Shown here: positions 229-39,487 of the stretch, in pieces
How the letters are laid out: every line of letters starts with the position of its first letter
How positions within the stretch are numbered: position 1 is the stretch's first letter
NCBI GenBank assembly: GCA_019084245.1
Contig: JAHRFE010000018.1
Location: 1 to 46,627, forward strand
Reading direction: 5' to 3'
DNA: 46,627 bases
Source: Hoeflea sp.
GTDB lineage: Bacteria; Pseudomonadota; Alphaproteobacteria; Rhizobiales; Rhizobiaceae
Translations under genes and position numbers: made by a program
Notes under the pieces: generated by a model
What the model was told of the DNA's origin: nothing
The model's database searches: none
What the model saw: only the letters and a program-made list of their open reading frames with translations

Positions 229-1602
229 TCAGGCGGCCTGGCCGACGACACGATTGCGACCGTCATGCTTGGCCTGGTAGAGCGCCCTGTCGGCGCGTCG
301 GAGCAGCGAATCAGCGCCCTCTCCGTCTTTATCCAGCGTCGCAATGCCGACAGATGTGGTCACCTGCACCATGGCTCCTGACGCCGAAACCTTGAACGGC
401 GAACCGGCCACGGCATCGCGCAGCCGTTCGGCGACATGCGCGGCAATCTCCGCAGGCGTGTCGGGCATCACCACCACGAATTCCTCGCCGCCATAGCGGC
501 AGGCAAGGTCGGCGCCGCGCACGGCGCCCCGGATGCGGCGGGCGAATTCACGCAGAACATCATCGCCGCCCTCATGGCCATGGGTGTCGTTGAAGGCCTT
601 GAAATGATCGATATCGGTAATCAGAACGGACAGGGGCCGGCCACGACGATGTGAGCGATCGACCAACGTCGCCATATGGGTGTCGAGATAGCGGCGGTTG
701 TTCAGGCCGGTGAGCGCGTCGGTAACCGCGAACTCGACCGATTCCGTCAGGCTGGCTCTGAGCCGGTCGGTGTAGCGCTTCCGGCGGATCTGGGTCACGC
801 TGCGGGCGACCAGCTCATTGGGATCAAGCGGCCGCAGCAGATAATCATTGACGCCGAGCTCCAGCGCACGGATCACAAGATCTTCTTCACCCTGCTCGGC
901 AACCACCAGCATGGGAATGAAACGGGTCCGCTCCAGCGAACGCAGTTGCGAGCACAGCCTCAAGGGATCGTAATTGTCGAGCGAGGACGACACGATCACC
1001 AGCTCATAGGGCTTGTCGGCCGCCTCGAACAATGCCGCCTGCGGGTCGCCAATGGCGGTCACCTCGGCAACTCCCTTGAGCGCCCGGTTCATGCGCTCCT
1101 GGGAGTTGGCGCGACTGTCGACCAGCAACACCATGCCCGGCTCTTCCAGCTGGCCCTGATGCGGCGCCAGAAGCGCCTCCAGGCCAAGATTGCGCGCAGT
1201 CTCGGCTCGAAGCCGAAGTTCATCGCTCAAGGCCTTGAAACGAATCAGGCTCTTGACCCTGGTCATGAGCTGCAGATCATTGACCGGCTTGGTCAGGAAA
1301 TCATCGGCACCGGCCTTGAGACCACGCACGCGGTCCGCCGGCTGATCCAGCGCCGTCACCATGACGACCGGAATATGGGCGGTGCGCGGATTGTGCTTGA
1401 GGCGGTGACAGACCTCAAATCCATCGATACCGGGCATCATGATGTCGAGCAGGATGAGATCGACCGGGGTCTGGTCGCAAATATCCAACGCGGTCATGCC
1501 GTCGGCAGCGGTCAGGACTTCAAAATACTCGGCCATCAGCCGGGCCTCGAGAAGCTTCACATTGGCCGGAATGTCATCAACCACCAGGATGCGCGCGGTC
1601 AT
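229..1602 (-). CDS. pleD: PleD-type response regulator / diguanylate cyclase
   Basis: A 457-residue cytoplasmic protein that makes c-di-GMP from GTP when its receiver is phosphorylated. REC1 covers about residues 3-118, with acidic pair D9/D10, phospho-acceptor D53 (LLDIMMPG) and K105. A second receiver-like domain (about 155-270) has no aspartate at the matching place (VIVSSSLDN), as expected for the adaptor REC of PleD. The GGDEF domain (about 292-455) has an intact GGEEF at 371-375 and an inhibitory I-site RGAD at 362-365, five residues upstream, so both catalysis and product inhibition should work. It lies 15 bp downstream of divK on the same strand, almost certainly co-transcribed. In Caulobacter the DivJ/PleC kinases phosphorylate both proteins. 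The gene downstream has been replaced by an IS5-family end. Confidence 0.97.
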   Translation of the reverse strand: MTARILVVDDIPANVKLLEARLMAEYFEVLTAADGMTALDICDQTPVDLILLDIMMPGIDGFEVCHRLKHNPRTAHIPVVMVTALDQPADRVRGLKAGADDFLTKPVNDLQLMTRVKSLIRFKALSDELRLRAETARNLGLEALLAPHQGQLEEPGMVLLVDSRANSQERMNRALKGVAEVTAIGDPQAALFEAADKPYELVIVSSSLDNYDPLRLCSQLRSLERTRFIPMLVVAEQGEEDLVIRALELGVNDYLLRPLDPNELVARSVTQIRRKRYTDRLRASLTESVEFAVTDALTGLNNRRYLDTHMATLVDRSHRRGRPLSVLITDIDHFKAFNDTHGHEGGDDVLREFARRIRGAVRGADLACRYGGEEFVVVMPDTPAEIAAHVAERLRDAVAGSPFKVSASGAMVQVTTSVGIATLDKDGEGADSLLRRADRALYQAKHDGRNRVVGQAA

Positions 1603-3766: not shown

Positions 3767-3816
3767 TTGTGAGTCGAAAGATTATTGCGTAATCTGCCAA
3801 TGTTCAACCTTTGTTC
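3767..3816. promoter_or_regulatory. Divergent GNAT/dinB promoters with a LexA box and a shared palindromic -10
   Basis: A perfect alphaproteobacterial LexA operator, GTTCAACCTTTGTTC, lies at 3802-3816. A plus-strand promoter reads TTGTGA (3767-3772), 17 bp, TAATCT (3790-3795), which puts transcription start near the first base of the LexA box. A minus-strand promoter reads TTGAAC (3807-3802), 17 bp, TAATCT (3784-3779), and its -35 overlaps the first GTTC half-site. Both -10 elements are the arms of one perfect palindrome, AGATTATTGCGTAATCT (3779-3795). LexA bound here should block both genes. The spacings are read directly; regulation is inferred. Confidence 0.8.
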
Positions 3817-6458: not shown

Positions 6459-9400
6459 TCAGACCAGTTCGACGTCGAGCACGCCGGGTGCGGCCTTGAG
6501 CGCCGAGGCGATCTGCGGCGAGATCTTGTAGCGGTCGGACAGCGTCACTTCGATCTCGCGGCGGCCATCATCCTTTATCATGACAAAGGACACCTGCCCC
6601 TCCCCATGCGCCTTCAGATGGGTCGAAACCGAATTGAGCGGACGGGCGTCGCGCATATAGACCCTGAGCGCCGACTGGCCGCGGGAAGCGCGGTCCTCGA
6701 GCGAATCCGCGGTCTGGATCCTGAGCCCGATGCCTTCAGGCCGCTCCTCGGCAGTGACCGTGATGACGATCGACTTGCCCGGTTCGAGCAGTTCCCGGTA
6801 GAGCGCCAGGCCTTCGGAAAACAGCACCGCTTCATACTGGCCGGAGCTGTCGGAAAAGGCCACGATCCCCATCTTGTTGCCGGTGCGCGTCTTGCGCTCC
6901 TGCTTGCTGGTCACCGTGCCGGCTAGCCGTCCGGCGGTGGCGCCGGCCTTGACCGCAAGCGAGAAATCCGCCCAGGTCTGCACCCGCATTTTCGCAAGAA
7001 GTTCGTTATAGGAATCAAGCGGATGCGCGGACAAATAAAAGCCCAGCGCCTGGTATTCGCGGTGCAGTTTTTCCGCCGGCAGCCAGGGCGGAGCGGCAGG
7101 CAGATGGATGGATTCGGCCCCCTCCTCAGAGGCCCCCGCGCCGAACATGTCGCTCTGGCCGCTGATGCGGTTTTCCTGGGCACGCTGGGCAAAGCCGAGG
7201 ATCCGGTCAAGTCCGGCGCTGAGCGCCGCCCGGTCCTGGCCGAAACAATCGAGCGCGCCGGCGGCGATCAGGCTTTCGAGCACCCGGCGGTTGACCTGGC
7301 GCGGGTCGATCCGCACACAAAAATCCTCGAGCGAGGCGAAGGGCGTGTCGCCGCGCATCTCGACGATATGCTCGACGGCCGCGTCGCCCACGCCCTTGAT
7401 TGCGGCGAGCGCATAATAGATCCGGTTGTCGCCGGTTTCGAAATGGCGGAAGCTGGTCTGCACCGAAGGCGCCGCAACCTCGATCCCCAGCCGCTTGGCG
7501 TCCTGGCGGAAATCATTGAGCTTGTCGGTGTTCGACATATCGTAAGTCATCGAGGCGGCGAGGAACTCGACCGGATAATGCGCTTTAAGATAGGCCGTCT
7601 GGTAGGAGACGATGCCATAGGCCGCGGCGTGGGACTTGTTGAAGCCGTAATTGGCGAATTTCGCCAGCAGATCGAAGATCATGTCGGCCTGCGGCTTGGA
7701 GACGTTGCGCTCGACTGCGCCCTCGACAAAGCGGGCGCGCTGCTGGTCCATCTCCGCCTTGATCTTCTTGCCCATGGCGCGGCGCAGCAGATCGGCTTCG
7801 CCGAGCGAGTAGCCTGCCAGGACCTGGGCGATCTGCATCACCTGTTCCTGATAGACGATCACCCCTTGGGTTTCGGCCAGCAGGTCGTCGATCTTCGGGT
7901 GGATGGAGGCCAGTTCCTCCTCGCCATGCTTGCGGGCGTTGTAGACCGGGATGTTCTCCATCGGACCCGGGCGATAGAGCGCCACGAGCGCGATGATGTC
8001 TTCGATGCGGTCGGGCCGCATGCCGATCAGCGCCTTGCGCATGCCCGCCGATTCAACCTGGAACACGCCGACGGTCTCCCCGCGCGACAGCATCTCATAG
8101 GTGAGCTTGTCATCGAGCGGCAGCGCTTCGAGGTCGATGCTGACGCCGCGCTTGGCGATGAAATCGACCGCGGTCTTGAGCACCGTCAGCGTCTTGAGGC
8201 CCAGAAAGTCGAACTTGACCAGGCCCGCCTGCTCCACCCATTTCATGTTGAACTGGGTGACCGGCATGTCGGACCGCGGATCGCGGTACATCGGTACCAG
8301 TTGCGACAAAGGCCGGTCGCCGATGACGATGCCTGCGGCGTGGGTGGAAGCGTGGCGGTAGAGCCCTTCGAGCTTCTGCGCGATGTCGAGGAGCCGGGCG
8401 ACGGCGGGTTCCTTGTCGGCCTCCTCCTGGAAGCGCGGCTCCTCCTCGATCGCCTTGTTCAAGGGCGTGGGGTTGGCCGGGTTGTTGGGCACCAGCTTGC
8501 AGATCCGGTCAACCAGCCCGTAGGGCATTTCCAGAACACGGCCGACATCGCGCAAAGCCGCACGCGCCTGCAGGCTTCCGAAGGTGATGATCTGCGCCAC
8601 CTGTTCACGGCCATATTTGGCGACCACATAGCGGATCACCTCGTCGCGGCGATCCTGGCAGAAATCGATGTCGAAGTCGGGCATCGAGACGCGGGCGGGA
8701 TTGAGGAAGCGCTCGAACAGCAGCGAGAAGCGCAGCGGATCGACATCGGTGATGGTGAGCGCATAGGCCACCAGCGATCCGGCGCCGGAACCGCGGCCGG
8801 GACCGACCGGAATGCCCTGCCCCTTGGCCCACTGGATGAAGTCGGCCACGATCAGGAAGTAGCCGGGAAATTTCATCGACTCAATAATGTCGAGCTCAAC
8901 CTGAAGCCGCTCGCGATAATCGGATTCAGTAAATCCTTCGGCCATGCCGATCCGGGCAAGCCGGCGCTCCAGCCCCTCGAGCGACTGACGCCGAAGTTCA
9001 GCGGCTTCGGCGGCGAGCGCTGCCTCCGGGTCGTCCTCGCCGCCGCCGGTAAATCGCGGCAAAATCGGCGCGCGGCTTTCGACGATGGCGCTGCAGCGCC
9101 GGGCAATCTCGACGGTGTTGGCGAGCGCTTCGGGAATGTCGGCAAACAGCGCCATCATCTCGGCGCGGGACTTGAGACAATGGTCGACGCTCAGCCGCGG
9201 CCGCCGGTCATCCGACATCACGGCGTTGCAGGCCACCGCCATCAAGGCATCATGGGCCTCGAAATCATCGGGCGTCGGGAAAAACGCTTCGTTCGCCGCC
9301 ACCAGCGGCACTTCGCACTCATAGGCGAGCGCTATCAACTTGGCCTCATGGGCACGATCATAGCCGCGCTGGCGCTGCAATTCGAGATAGAGCCGGTCGC

Positions 9401-10019
9401 CAAACACCGATTTGAGCCGCTCCAGCCTGGCCTTGGCAAGGTCGGGATGGCCTTCGCGCATGGCCTGATCGACCGGCCCGCCGCCTGCGCCTGTGAGCGC
9501 GATCAGGCCGCCGGCGTCTTCGTCTAGCCAGGACAGTTCGATATGCGGCCGGTCGGACGTGTCACCGCCGAGGTAGGCCTGGCTGACGATCGCCACCAAT
9601 CGGTCATAGCCCGCAGGGGTCGCGGCATACACTACAATATGCGGCGCCTTCTGCAGGTGATCCCGGTGCGAGCGGCGATCGCCGGTCTGGCCGTCCTGCA
9701 TGTCGATATCGAGCTGACATCCGATCAGCGGCTGAATTCCCGCTTCCATGGCCTTGACCGAAAATTCGAGCGCCCCGAACAGATTGTTGGTGTCGGTGAT
9801 AGCAAGCGCCGGCTGATCATCGGAGACGGCCCGCTTGATCAGGGTCTTGATCGGCAGCGCGCCCTCAAGCAGCGAATAGGCCGAATGCACGCGCAGATGC
9901 ACGAAACCCGGCCAGGCGCCCGGCCCGCGGTCATCACCATGCCTGTCACGCCCGCGTGCCTGCTCGGTGCCCGCCGCCAGATTGGCCAGCAGTTTGGCTG
10001 ACTTGTTGTCCCGCGCCAT
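6459..10019 (-). CDS. dnaE: DNA polymerase III alpha subunit (replicative)
   Basis: The main chromosomal replicase, 1186 residues, close to the usual 1160-1180. A PHP domain starts at HLRVHSAYSLLEGA (about residue 42). The catalytic centre has GPGRGSGAGSLVAYAL and MPDFDIDFCQDRR (aspartates near residues 442-446), then a third acidic site further on. A fingers region carries GVIVYQEQVMQIAQVLAGY, then the (HhH)2 segment AIKGVGDAAVEHIVE. A C-terminal OB domain starts near TWADFSLAVKAGATAGRLAG. The first 40 residues are a charged extension rich in Gly and Arg, poorly conserved in the family. The length and OB domain mark DnaE1 rather than the ImuABC-linked DnaE2. A LexA-controlled peptide gene lies 226 bp upstream on the same strand. 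Confidence 0.97.
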   Translation of the reverse strand: MARDNKSAKLLANLAAGTEQARGRDRHGDDRGPGAWPGFVHLRVHSAYSLLEGALPIKTLIKRAVSDDQPALAITDTNNLFGALEFSVKAMEAGIQPLIGCQLDIDMQDGQTGDRRSHRDHLQKAPHIVVYAATPAGYDRLVAIVSQAYLGGDTSDRPHIELSWLDEDAGGLIALTGAGGGPVDQAMREGHPDLAKARLERLKSVFGDRLYLELQRQRGYDRAHEAKLIALAYECEVPLVAANEAFFPTPDDFEAHDALMAVACNAVMSDDRRPRLSVDHCLKSRAEMMALFADIPEALANTVEIARRCSAIVESRAPILPRFTGGGEDDPEAALAAEAAELRRQSLEGLERRLARIGMAEGFTESDYRERLQVELDIIESMKFPGYFLIVADFIQWAKGQGIPVGPGRGSGAGSLVAYALTITDVDPLRFSLLFERFLNPARVSMPDFDIDFCQDRRDEVIRYVVAKYGREQVAQIITFGSLQARAALRDVGRVLEMPYGLVDRICKLVPNNPANPTPLNKAIEEEPRFQEEADKEPAVARLLDIAQKLEGLYRHASTHAAGIVIGDRPLSQLVPMYRDPRSDMPVTQFNMKWVEQAGLVKFDFLGLKTLTVLKTAVDFIAKRGVSIDLEALPLDDKLTYEMLSRGETVGVFQVESAGMRKALIGMRPDRIEDIIALVALYRPGPMENIPVYNARKHGEEELASIHPKIDDLLAETQGVIVYQEQVMQIAQVLAGYSLGEADLLRRAMGKKIKAEMDQQRARFVEGAVERNVSKPQADMIFDLLAKFANYGFNKSHAAAYGIVSYQTAYLKAHYPVEFLAASMTYDMSNTDKLNDFRQDAKRLGIEVAAPSVQTSFRHFETGDNRIYYALAAIKGVGDAAVEHIVEMRGDTPFASLEDFCVRIDPRQVNRRVLESLIAAGALDCFGQDRAALSAGLDRILGFAQRAQENRISGQSDMFGAGASEEGAESIHLPAAPPWLPAEKLHREYQALGFYLSAHPLDSYNELLAKMRVQTWADFSLAVKAGATAGRLAGTVTSKQERKTRTGNKMGIVAFSDSSGQYEAVLFSEGLALYRELLEPGKSIVITVTAEERPEGIGLRIQTADSLEDRASRGQSALRVYMRDARPLNSVSTHLKAHGEGQVSFVMIKDDGRREIEVTLSDRYKISPQIASALKAAPGVLDVELV

Positions 10020-10153: not shown

Positions 10154-10173
10154 GGCGGGCAGGAAGACCCGCC
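10154..10173 (-). other. GC hairpin between the small membrane peptide gene and dnaE
   Basis: GGCGGG (10154-10159) and CCCGCC (10168-10173) form a six-base GC stem with an eight-base loop. There is no T-tract on the minus strand, so it is a weak terminator at best and read-through into dnaE remains possible. No other gene is visible between 10020 and 10245. Confidence 0.35.
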
Positions 10174-10245
10174 CATGGAGAGTCCGCCAGGCCGAGCGGC
10201 GGCTTCTCCGCTTCATCAGGCAGATATCAGCGGTTGACGCAAAAC

Positions 10246-10332
10246 TCAGAACGCGAGCGCCAGAACGGCGAAGCTCGCCACGAACAGCGACATGGAGACG
10301 AATGCGGCAAGGTCACGGGCAAATGCAGTCAT
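10246..10332 (-). CDS. 28-residue hydrophobic membrane peptide, SOS-controlled, SidA-like
   Basis: A small gene of 28 codons starting ATG at 10332, with GAGGAG six bases upstream, and stopping at 10246. The product begins MTAFARDLAAFVSM and continues as one uninterrupted hydrophobic helix to the C-terminus (about residues 9-28, rich in Phe, Val, Leu, Ala), with Arg6 and Asp7 at the cytoplasmic side. That makes a single-pass inner-membrane peptide. Its promoter holds a perfect LexA box between -35 and -10. Caulobacter SidA is a 29-residue SOS-induced membrane peptide that inhibits division through FtsW, and this gene matches it in size, topology and control. I cannot assert sequence homology. 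It lies 226 bp upstream of dnaE on the same strand. Confidence 0.8.
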   Translation of the reverse strand: MTAFARDLAAFVSMSLFVASFAVLALAF

Positions 10333-10362
10333 GATCAACTCCTCAATTCACTCTGTGTTTCT

Positions 10363-10391
10363 TTTATGTTCACTTATTGTTCTTTTGTCAA
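10363..10391 (-). promoter_or_regulatory. Sigma70 promoter with LexA box in the spacer
   Basis: On the minus strand TTGACA (10391-10386) is followed after exactly 17 bp by CATAAA (10368-10363). A perfect LexA box (plus strand GTTCACTTATTGTTC, 10368-10382) fills the spacer and touches the -10, the classical position for repression. The predicted transcript start is near 10356, giving a leader of about 24 bases that contains the GAGGAG ribosome site of the 28-residue peptide. Confidence 0.85.
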
Positions 10392-10452: not shown

Positions 10453-10482
10453 AAAAAAAACCCGGACGCTAACGCCCGGGTT
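10453..10482 (-). terminator. Rho-independent terminator after hupB
   Basis: AACCCGG (10459-10465) and CCGGGTT (10476-10482) form the stem, with extra CG pairs possible in the loop. On the minus strand it is followed by a run of eight T (plus-strand A-run at 10453-10460). It lies about 30 bases past the hupB stop. Confidence 0.85.
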
Positions 10483-10511
10483 CGATGTGTTGAATGTTTC
10501 AAACGGACAGC

Positions 10512-22898: not shown

Positions 22899-23195
22899 TC
22901 AACAGACCTGGACGCCGCATTCGCTGATGGTGAATTCTTCGGCAGGCTCGATCCGCGAACCGTCGAACTGACGGCCATCGGCGCATTGTGCGCGCGCCTC
23001 GAATGTCAGCCGTCCGGCAAGCTGGCCCTCCCGGATGTTGAGATAATACTCGACCGCGCAATCCTCCTGGAGGGCCAGTTGATCCGACAGCCGGTCAAGC
23101 CAGGCCGGATCGGCTGATTGGGCGAACGATGCCTGAACCATGCCAAGCAGAAGGGCTGCAGACAGGGTAATGGATCTCGAATAGGCTCGGAACAT
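22899..23195 (-). CDS. Small secreted protein of unknown function
   Basis: A 98-residue protein with a clear signal peptide (RSITLSAALLLGMVQASFAQ, cleavage probably after AQ near residue 25). The mature part of about 73 residues has four Cys (DCAVEYY, AQCADG, SECGVQVC), suggesting disulfides in the periplasm. I do not recognise the family. The start is at 23195 because GGAGG lies six bases upstream. Longer readings to 23327 lack a signal. The mature part begins with a helix (LDRLSDQLALQEDC) and then strand-like segments. Convergent with DUF6653. Confidence 0.75.
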   Translation of the reverse strand: MFRAYSRSITLSAALLLGMVQASFAQSADPAWLDRLSDQLALQEDCAVEYYLNIREGQLAGRLTFEARAQCADGRQFDGSRIEPAEEFTISECGVQVC

Positions 23196-27831: not shown

Positions 27832-27872
27832 GAACATATCACGAACATAATGGGCGACCTGGCGCCTGTCAA
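27832..27872 (-). promoter_or_regulatory. LexA-controlled promoter of the VOC-GNAT operon
   Basis: On the minus strand TTGACA (27872-27867) is followed after exactly 17 bp by TATGTT (27849-27844). A perfect LexA box (plus strand GAACATATCACGAAC, 27832-27846; minus strand GTTC-N7-GTTC) overlaps the last bases of the -10 and the transcript start. Leader about 68 bases. Spacings are direct observations; LexA control is inferred from the known alphaproteobacterial operator. Confidence 0.85.
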
Positions 27873-37387: not shown

Positions 37388-39487
37388 TTAGGCTGCGGAA
37401 CTGCGTTGTCCAAACGGGCTCGACGGCTGGCCGGGGGTCATCAGCAATACGTTCTCAAACCCCTGCGCGTTGAATTCCGCGAGGAATCCTGCCACTTCGG
37501 CCTCACCCGACCGCAGGATCGACAGCACGATCTCGCCTCCGTCAGCGCGGGCGATGCGGGCAACAGAGGCAGCGTCGGCCGCCCCGCATTCAACGATCAC
37601 CAGATCATAGGCCTCGGTCAGCGCGTCAATGACCATTGGCAGACGGTCGATGGCGCGCATGGCGCGGCGTGCATTGGCATTGCCGCGCGGAATGATATGG
37701 GCCGATGACAGCCGATCAGGGTGGATCGAATCCGCGATGGCGATGTCGCCGCACATCAGGTCGGTCAGACCTGGCAATCGCCTGGATTCCGCCATCAGTT
37801 CGGTCGGACAGGCCGACCCGGTGAGATCGATCAGCAAGGTCTGAAAACCGTCGCCGGCCACGGTGCGCGCCAGCATGACCGCTGCCGCCGACCCTTCGTC
37901 GCCCTCCGGCGAGATGCAGACCGCCACCGGCGTTCCATCGGTGACGAGTTGTTCGGCGACCGCTTCAACGCTGAAATCATCGGCGTCATTGGCAATGGCC
38001 GGCATCGCTGCCACCACTTCGGGGGCGATGGCCGGGGTTGCCGCAACAGTTTCGGGCTGTTCGGCGGATGGTTCGCGGATCAACCCGGATGACGGCCGCA
38101 GAGCCCGCCCGGAGAACAGTTCCCCCAGCATCACGCCGATCGACGCCAACAGGAAGGTCGCCAGCGCCGAAACAACGATGATCGGAATAGTTTTCGGGTA
38201 AAACGATTCGGACGCGGGGACGGCACGGGAAATCACCCGAGCATCAGCGGGCAGCGCCTTGGGTTCGGAGCGCGATGCGGCTTCGCGGTAGCGGCCCAGA
38301 TAGGTCTCCAGAAGATCGCGCTGGGCGGCGGCTTCGCGTTCCAGCGAGCGCAGTTCGACCGCTTCCTCGCCTTCGCGGCCCGACCCGACCTTGAGTGCAT
38401 TGAGCTGGGCTGTGAGTTCCTGTTCCCGAAGTCCCGCAACCCGAGCATTGCTTTCGAGGCTCGACAGCACCTTGCGGATTTCGCCGCGGATCTGGATTTC
38501 AACATCGCTCAATTGCGCCCGCAGGCCCTTCATGCGCGGGTGCGCCTCAAGCAGGGTCGTCGACAGATCGGCGATCTGGGCGCGGATATTGCCTTCGCTT
38601 TCGCGCAGGCGCTGAACCACCGGCGAACTCAACACATCCGAGACCGCATCAACGGCCTGCCCGTTCTCGAGCGCGTTGCGCACCGACTGGGCGCGGGCTT
38701 CCGCATCGGCGCGTTCGGCGCGCACGCGGCTCAGTTCCGTCGAAATATCGGACAATTGCTTGGCGGCGATCGTATCCTGCTGATTGACCAGCAGCAAACC
38801 CGATTGAGAGCGGTACTCCGCAACCTTTGCTTCCGATTCACGGACCTTCTCACGCAGCCTGGCGATTTCAGGTTCAAGCCAGGCGCTGGCATCGGTGTTG
38901 GTCTCCCGTTTCGCCCCTGACTGGAAGGCAAGATAGGCATTGACCAGCGCATTGGGCACCGCGGCGGCAAGGCTTGCGTCTTCGGACGAAAATTCGATGC
39001 CGATGACCCGCGATCCGGGCACGGCGTAGACTTCGAGCTTGCTGTAGAACTCCTTGAGCACGCGCTCCTCGGCGGGCACCTCCAACGGGTTCTTCTTGAG
39101 GCCGAGCATCACCAGCACATCGCCAATGGCGGAGGGATTGGCGGCCGGGTCAAACTCGCCGCGCGACGAAAGGTCGAGCTCGCGGGCTACCTGTTTGATC
39201 AGATCCGTCGACCGGAGGATTTCCACCTGGCTGGTCACCGCGCGTTCATCAAGCACGGAACCATCCGTTTGTGACGTCTGGTCGCTCGAATAGACCGGCT
39301 CCCGGGTTTCGATCAGCAGCCGGGTTTCCGACTTGTAGAGGGGGTTGATGAGACCTGTCACAACGAAGGCCAGACCCGCCGCTGCGGCGGTCAGACCTGC
39401 GACGAGCGCTTTCTTCTCCCACACTGCTGTGAGCAGGCGGCCGAGATCAATATCCACATCCGGTTGCGGCATCGGTGAGACAGACAT
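37388..39487 (-). CDS. ExoP-like polysaccharide co-polymerase with a degenerate kinase domain
   Basis: A 699-residue inner-membrane protein. An N-terminal Wzz domain with TM1 at about residues 29-48 is followed by a long periplasmic coiled coil (about 180-400, ISTELSRVRAERADAEARAQ) and TM2 near 430-455 (IPIIVVSALATFLLASIGVM). A C-terminal cytoplasmic domain resembles BY-kinases, but its Walker A is replaced by SPEGDEGSAAAVML, which lacks the lysine of GxxxxGK[ST], and Walker A-prime is LLIDLTG without the usual acidic pair. There is no tyrosine cluster at the end. Catalysis is therefore doubtful; a chain-length scaffold is more likely. ATG 39487 (GGAG upstream) replaces a longer start. Divergent from the Wza-like gene. 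Confidence 0.88.
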   Translation of the reverse strand: MSVSPMPQPDVDIDLGRLLTAVWEKKALVAGLTAAAAGLAFVVTGLINPLYKSETRLLIETREPVYSSDQTSQTDGSVLDERAVTSQVEILRSTDLIKQVARELDLSSRGEFDPAANPSAIGDVLVMLGLKKNPLEVPAEERVLKEFYSKLEVYAVPGSRVIGIEFSSEDASLAAAVPNALVNAYLAFQSGAKRETNTDASAWLEPEIARLREKVRESEAKVAEYRSQSGLLLVNQQDTIAAKQLSDISTELSRVRAERADAEARAQSVRNALENGQAVDAVSDVLSSPVVQRLRESEGNIRAQIADLSTTLLEAHPRMKGLRAQLSDVEIQIRGEIRKVLSSLESNARVAGLREQELTAQLNALKVGSGREGEEAVELRSLEREAAAQRDLLETYLGRYREAASRSEPKALPADARVISRAVPASESFYPKTIPIIVVSALATFLLASIGVMLGELFSGRALRPSSGLIREPSAEQPETVAATPAIAPEVVAAMPAIANDADDFSVEAVAEQLVTDGTPVAVCISPEGDEGSAAAVMLARTVAGDGFQTLLIDLTGSACPTELMAESRRLPGLTDLMCGDIAIADSIHPDRLSSAHIIPRGNANARRAMRAIDRLPMVIDALTEAYDLVIVECGAADAASVARIARADGGEIVLSILRSGEAEVAGFLAEFNAQGFENVLLMTPGQPSSPFGQRSSAA

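Follow-up and report, generated by a model that had tools for sequence, protein, structure and literature searches.

The closest described system to the gene reported here is SidA of Caulobacter. SidA is a 29-residue, SOS-induced peptide of the inner membrane that acts on FtsW; it blocks division, interacts with both FtsW and FtsN, and is suppressed by changes in FtsW or FtsI, as described in PMC4211646. The same paper describes DidA, another small damage-induced membrane inhibitor of the FtsW/FtsI/FtsN complex in Caulobacter, which is SOS-independent and binds FtsN. Other damage-induced membrane proteins that block late division are YneA in Bacillus, SosA in Staphylococcus, and ChiZ in Mycobacterium; a LysM domain is present in YneA and in ChiZ (PMC13396833). 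FtsW TM7 was proposed in 2026 as the common contact for the TM helices of YneA, SosA, ChiZ, and SidA; with the exception of the work on YneA, the authors themselves say that these models are not of high confidence (PMC13396833).

A gene resembling sidA was found in the window, the whole stretch of 46,627 nucleotides of DNA analysed here. Recognized by direct reading, by its conserved frame, and by homology to SidA, it lies on the minus strand (10246..10332) with its start ATG at 10332 and its stop codon at 10246-10248, and its product is MTAFARDLAAFVSMSLFVASFAVLALAF. The peptide is like SidA in its size (28 vs 29 residues), its single hydrophobic helix, its predicted LexA control, and its position directly upstream of dnaE; the helix is a prediction from a best 17-residue Kyte-Doolittle mean of 2.3. 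Compared by description, the gene differs from didA in having a LexA box and from the genes of YneA and ChiZ, whose products carry the LysM domain. The sequence-only reading had described a 28-codon gene with GAGGAG at good spacing and a TTGACA-N17-CATAAA promoter with a perfect GTTC-N7-GTTC in its spacer, and direct reading of the letters bears out both descriptions. All of these signals are on the minus strand. The ribosome-binding site GAGGAG (10339..10344) stands 6 bases 5' of the ATG. The -10 element CATAAA (10363..10368) and the -35 element TTGACA (10386..10391) enclose a spacer of 17 bases, most of which is taken up by the LexA box GAACAATAAGTGAAC (10368..10382; GTTC-N7-GTTC on the plus strand), a feature that is also conserved and that shares one base with the -10 element. 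A TTGAC-like element is present upstream of many relatives (uncounted). A sigma-70 consensus scan did not have the window promoter among its results, because the scan requires the second hexamer to end in T and CATAAA ends in A.

The minus-strand order of the region is clpX, lon, hupB (HU), a terminator-like hairpin, the peptide gene, and dnaE. The hairpin scan placed the first hairpin, of 11 pairs followed by a T run, 3' of hupB and before the peptide gene (10458..10483, minus strand). It placed another terminator-like hairpin in the interval between the peptide gene and dnaE (10156..10175, minus strand), which is considered weak because the segment 10000-10900 holds two hairpins where 1.3 are expected by chance. 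The downstream neighbour dnaE (6459..10019, minus strand) encodes the DNA polymerase III alpha subunit in 1186 codons.

Is the gene conserved? When 199 genomes from its own family were searched with the peptide, 88 gave a match at E <=1, and 30 loci were read, consisting of the window and the 29 best-matching relatives out of these 88. The ORF is kept in all 30 loci and is 28 residues long in 27 of them. The box is perfect in 28 loci, the window included, and has one mismatch in two; it starts 46-52 bases 5' of the ATG in 28/30. In other words, frame and LexA box, whose absence from relatives the sequence-only reading had named as refuting, are both kept in the loci read. All 30 peptides differ from one another. 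Divergence by codon position was 0.24/0.08/0.42 among the 27 ORFs of 28 codons, and the codon-substitution analysis that had been proposed gave a dN/dS of ~0.20 (13 disjoint pairs from the same 27 sequences). As judged from these codon measures, the peptide frame is under purifying selection. The ORFs of the three other loci (L004, L005, and L013) have 33 residues owing to a five-residue N-terminal extension (e.g. MLEFAPAGFARD...); thus, the N-terminal end tolerates growth.

A profile built on the 30 rows matched 104 of the 199 family genomes at E <=0.01, a figure that is not independent since the profile derives from the same genome set. The remaining 95 genomes had no profile match at E 0.01, and absence there may reflect loss or divergence. 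Across the order, 184 of 397 genomes searched had a match at E <=1, many of them weak. Among the best 21 of the order loci outside the family, 20 had dnaE downstream together with a box of 0-1 mismatch (perfect in 16), and one (L050) had neither; the peptides in these loci are 29-36 residues long.

Caulobacter sidA occupies the same place. Named Caulobacteraceae genomes were found via the beta clamp, and the region upstream of dnaE was read in 15 of them. A 29-30-residue single-helix ORF occurs just before dnaE in 15/15. A perfect box is present 29-64 bases 5' of the ATG of this ORF in ten; the other five (L172, L182, L184, L185, and L186) have no perfect box, and near-boxes such as GAACAAAACGGGAAT occur at L172, L182, and L184. 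Along its entire length, the 29-residue ORF of C. vibrioides matches the NCBIfam model NF033228, named 'cell division inhibitor SidA' (2e-20, 72.4 bits, cut-off 35), and it is flanked by dnaE on one side and by a gene for an inosine-uridine nucleoside hydrolase on the other. In the literature, sidA is CCNA_02004 (PMC10769358), CCNA_02005 is an inosine-uridine nucleoside hydrolase (PMC3667746), and dnaE is CC1926 in the older numbering (PMC1839093); the start codon of C. crescentus sidA was corrected through ribosome profiling (PMC4117421). The neighbours of the C. vibrioides ORF fit CCNA_02004, CCNA_02005, and CC1926, and therefore sidA and the window gene share one place.

The two sets of peptides also resemble each other in sequence. 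When the rhizobial and Caulobacter sets are aligned Met-to-Met, the register is ungapped and R6, D/E7, A10, S13, F17, and V18 are in common. The summed similarity exceeded that of column permutations (p 0.0007), and p was 0.0034 when columns could change places only with others of the same region (N-terminus or helix), a restriction that limits the effect of hydrophobicity. The rows of this permutation test were 10 of the 15 Caulobacteraceae, with L173 and L174 (30 residues) and the near-duplicates L181, L185, and L186 left out. On the order side, 10 rows were taken from the 14 that entered the one-sequence test described below. Alignment of the rhizobial and Caulobacter profiles by hhalign gave a P of 2.4e-5 over 19 columns, and none of 300 column-shuffled versions was as good (best shuffle 0.0011). 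In the one-sequence test, which is stricter, peptides were scored one at a time against shuffles. All 14 rows from other families of the order scored at p <=0.015; these were 14 of 22 order rows, without L043, L048, L050, L053, L055, L056, L057, and L059. A p<0.05 was obtained for 7 of 13 Caulobacteraceae rows (13 of the 15, without L181 and L186) and for 2 of 22 chosen rows from the more distant class.

Family models gave a different picture. At E <=10, NF033228 gave no match to the window peptide or to the 30 rows of the alignment, and its curated 35-bit cut-off was not reached. Pfam assigned no family to the window peptide, nor to five relatives, one of which was SidA. In PHROGs, two unnamed families were weakly matched by 2/30 and 1/30 rows (best E 0.01 and 0.067), and four individual peptides had no match. 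Because NF033228 misses all 30 rows and the one-sequence test is weak for Caulobacteraceae, the window gene is placed outside the curated equivalog; it is very likely a diverged SidA orthologue. The earlier proposal of a functional counterpart of SidA is thus supported by size, single helix, LexA box, dnaE position, and ungapped alignment, and it becomes one of probable orthology. A search that covered open-access papers, and so is no proof of novelty, found no publication describing relatives of SidA beyond Caulobacter.

How would such a peptide act? The explanation that we regard as probable overall is that a diverged orthologue of Caulobacter SidA acts in the following way, in which expression, membrane insertion, target, and phenotype are what we infer. 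In an undamaged cell, LexA sitting on the spacer box would block RNA polymerase, as the position of the box suggests. Upon damage, RecA would become active, LexA would cleave itself, and the 28-residue peptide would be made. As a single helix, the peptide would insert in the inner membrane, and its short N-terminus with the conserved R6-D7 is predicted to lie in the cytoplasm. As with SidA, the helix would then bind the late divisome (FtsW, FtsI, and FtsN) and septal wall synthesis would be held inactive until repair is done. The genome of the window has one FtsW/RodA-family match, which could be either protein.

The target itself may have changed. Residues that are invariant in an alignment of the same 10 Caulobacteraceae rows as in the permutation test (including R3, W19, M20, and C22) are absent from the window peptide, and without them the contact with the target may differ. 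This opens the way to an unlikely reading, in which the peptide is truly related to SidA but has come to act on a different divisome protein, such as FtsN, the target of DidA. The loss of W19, M20, and C22 speaks for such a move, as does the description of DidA as binding FtsN even though some FtsW and FtsI changes suppress both inhibitors (PMC4211646). However, the best-matching residues R6, D/E7, A10, S13, F17, and V18 are mostly near-invariant in the rhizobial set, which favors an unchanged target.

The size class and the predicted SOS control of the peptide are equally those of DinQ and TisB, which are SOS-controlled single-helix peptides. DinQ and TisB act on the membrane and not on the divisome, and an antisense RNA partner is usual for toxins of this type. 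A peptide acting like TisB or DinQ would disturb the membrane and slow metabolism rather than inhibit the divisome. We consider this improbable for the window gene, whose product, in contrast, is similar to SidA and encoded at the same locus.

How far does the arrangement extend? Among 29 listed loci with rhizobial-profile matches besides the own genome, just two had dnaE downstream together with a box: L062, from outside the order, and L076, from the same order. Profile matches outside the order are no proof alone, and therefore the class was surveyed by dnaE synteny. Of 387 class genomes, 365 gave a DnaE match. From these, 130 were read, namely the 30 that ranked highest, with the own genome among them, and a further 100 listed places. 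Sampling by rank makes the survey lean to DnaE sequences like that of the window. In 27 of the 130 upstream regions, a hydrophobic ORF of 24-55 residues is preceded within 110 bases by a perfect box; these 27 include the own genome and one member of the family. On the opposite strand of the same regions, which served as a control, the combination occurred in 0/130 with a perfect box and in 2/130 with up to one mismatch. Allowing up to one mismatch, box and ORF were found together in 30/130, of which L248 and L298 look spurious; the remaining 100 regions fall in neither group. Eight survey regions had a perfect box without a qualifying ORF. Three regions (L272, L274, and L199) were short at a contig end, and L199 had no perfect box in its 192 upstream bases. 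The D before the helix is kept in 14 of 17 aligned class rows. For many class rows, the case for a relation to SidA comes from place and box and not from the sequence. A wider sidA-dnaE arrangement to which the window gene belongs is very likely.

The dnaE link is the constant part of the neighborhood. dnaE is downstream on the same strand in 30/30 loci, the window included, and HU and Lon are upstream in just 7/30. Since dnaE is constant while the upstream gene varies, the link to dnaE is the conserved one. The estimated gap between the peptide gene and dnaE is 226 nt in the window and reaches 280 nt among the 27 survey loci. At two loci (L189 and L278), the peptide gene ends an estimated 26-28 nt before a plausible dnaE start; because this gap is so small, dnaE may be co-transcribed and SOS-induced there. 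Such an arrangement raises a further, quite improbable, reading, namely that the ORF serves as a leader (an upstream ORF) of a dnaE transcript induced by the SOS response, and that its translation, not the peptide, tunes the supply of DnaE after damage. It has on its side the invariable dnaE downstream in the 30 loci, the same neighbor in 15/15 Caulobacteraceae (a set anchored on dnaE), and the short gaps at L189 and L278. A leader would, however, leave its residues free, and the dN/dS of ~0.20 shows that residue identity is constrained. The peptide also resembles SidA, a proven effector, and the longer gaps argue against a leader too, including that of the window, where the weak hairpin lies between the two genes.

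What does the LexA box contribute? GTTC-N7-GTTC has 138 matches genome-wide against 118 for the reversed pattern, and for this reason a perfect box by itself is weak evidence. Its value rests on position, the AT-rich spacer, and conservation. Random 110-nt stretches from the same 30 loci contained a perfect box at a rate of ~1%, as compared with 28/30 upstream of the ORF; the computed rate was 0.87%, whose denominator is all draws including skipped ones, so that ~1% is closer. The own genome encodes LexA, and a box of the same type is found ~65 bases upstream of the lexA ORF (C30:261010-261024); another box, GTTCTTTATTTGTTC, lies between ssb and uvrA. lexA, ssb, and uvrA are classical SOS targets. 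A chance ORF beneath a chance box, for which the near-chance frequency of the bare pattern might speak, is ruled out by the conserved frame, box, and dnaE synteny, the codon-position bias, the dN/dS of ~0.20, and the opposite-strand control of 0/130, and its probability is negligible.

Other boxes were also noted. The window holds five GTTC-N7-GTTC in all where 1.2 are expected by chance, and the other four are at 3802-3816, 23124-23138, 27832-27846, and 38614-38628. Elsewhere in the own genome, a DUF4747 gene of unassigned function is preceded, at a distance of ~110 bases, by the consensus-like LexA box GAACAAAAAGAGAAC (C24:39460-39474; L342 1961-1975), which makes this gene a possible SOS target. 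Another consensus-like LexA box, GAACAAAAATAGAAC, is located inside the frame of a DarT-type ADP-ribosyltransferase (C30:220659-220673; L341 2060-2074) and may be due to chance.

Some family genomes showed a second match in the profile search, and four such places away from dnaE were read. Second SidA-like peptides (e.g. MRDLLHDIASFVAVSTFIATFAVWAGYLAEKV) are encoded at L347 (1201-1296, plus strand) and, on the reverse strand, at L349 and L351. The 120 bases 5' of these three peptides contain no box of 0-1 mismatch, and their neighbors are of PHROG type (exonuclease VIII, a transcriptional repressor, and an exonuclease). Each of the three genomes also retains a copy beside dnaE, under a perfect box (L348, L350, and L352). 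Judged by these surroundings, L347, L349, and L351 look like prophage copies. The fourth place, L353 (~1201-1341, plus strand), is a second profile match in genome G163; it has no dnaE nearby, and its 46-residue ORF (MPDLIRDLASFVVIVAF...) is accompanied by a one-mismatch box. A tblastn search of phage records gave no match for the prophage-type peptide of L349, a tblastn search of plasmids gave none for the window peptide, and a profile-based scan of IMG/VR confirmed 0 of 33 pattern matches.

These observations can be joined in a broader model, for and against which we see the scales as evenly balanced. In this model, LexA box, sidA, and dnaE would form an ancestral alphaproteobacterial SOS module in which division arrest is coupled to the replicative polymerase, and for much of the class the missing SOS inhibitors of division would be SidA-type peptides. 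Box-less copies would have been captured by some prophages, which would use them to arrest host division on their own schedule. If the link to SidA holds, a likely SOS checkpoint gene has been named for a large group of alphaproteobacteria, and FtsW-directed arrest is suggested to be old and not peculiar to Caulobacter. It would also provide a search rule for genes too short for routine annotation, which is to look just upstream of dnaE and under a LexA box. Diverged natural variants would help to map the contact between the peptide and FtsW.
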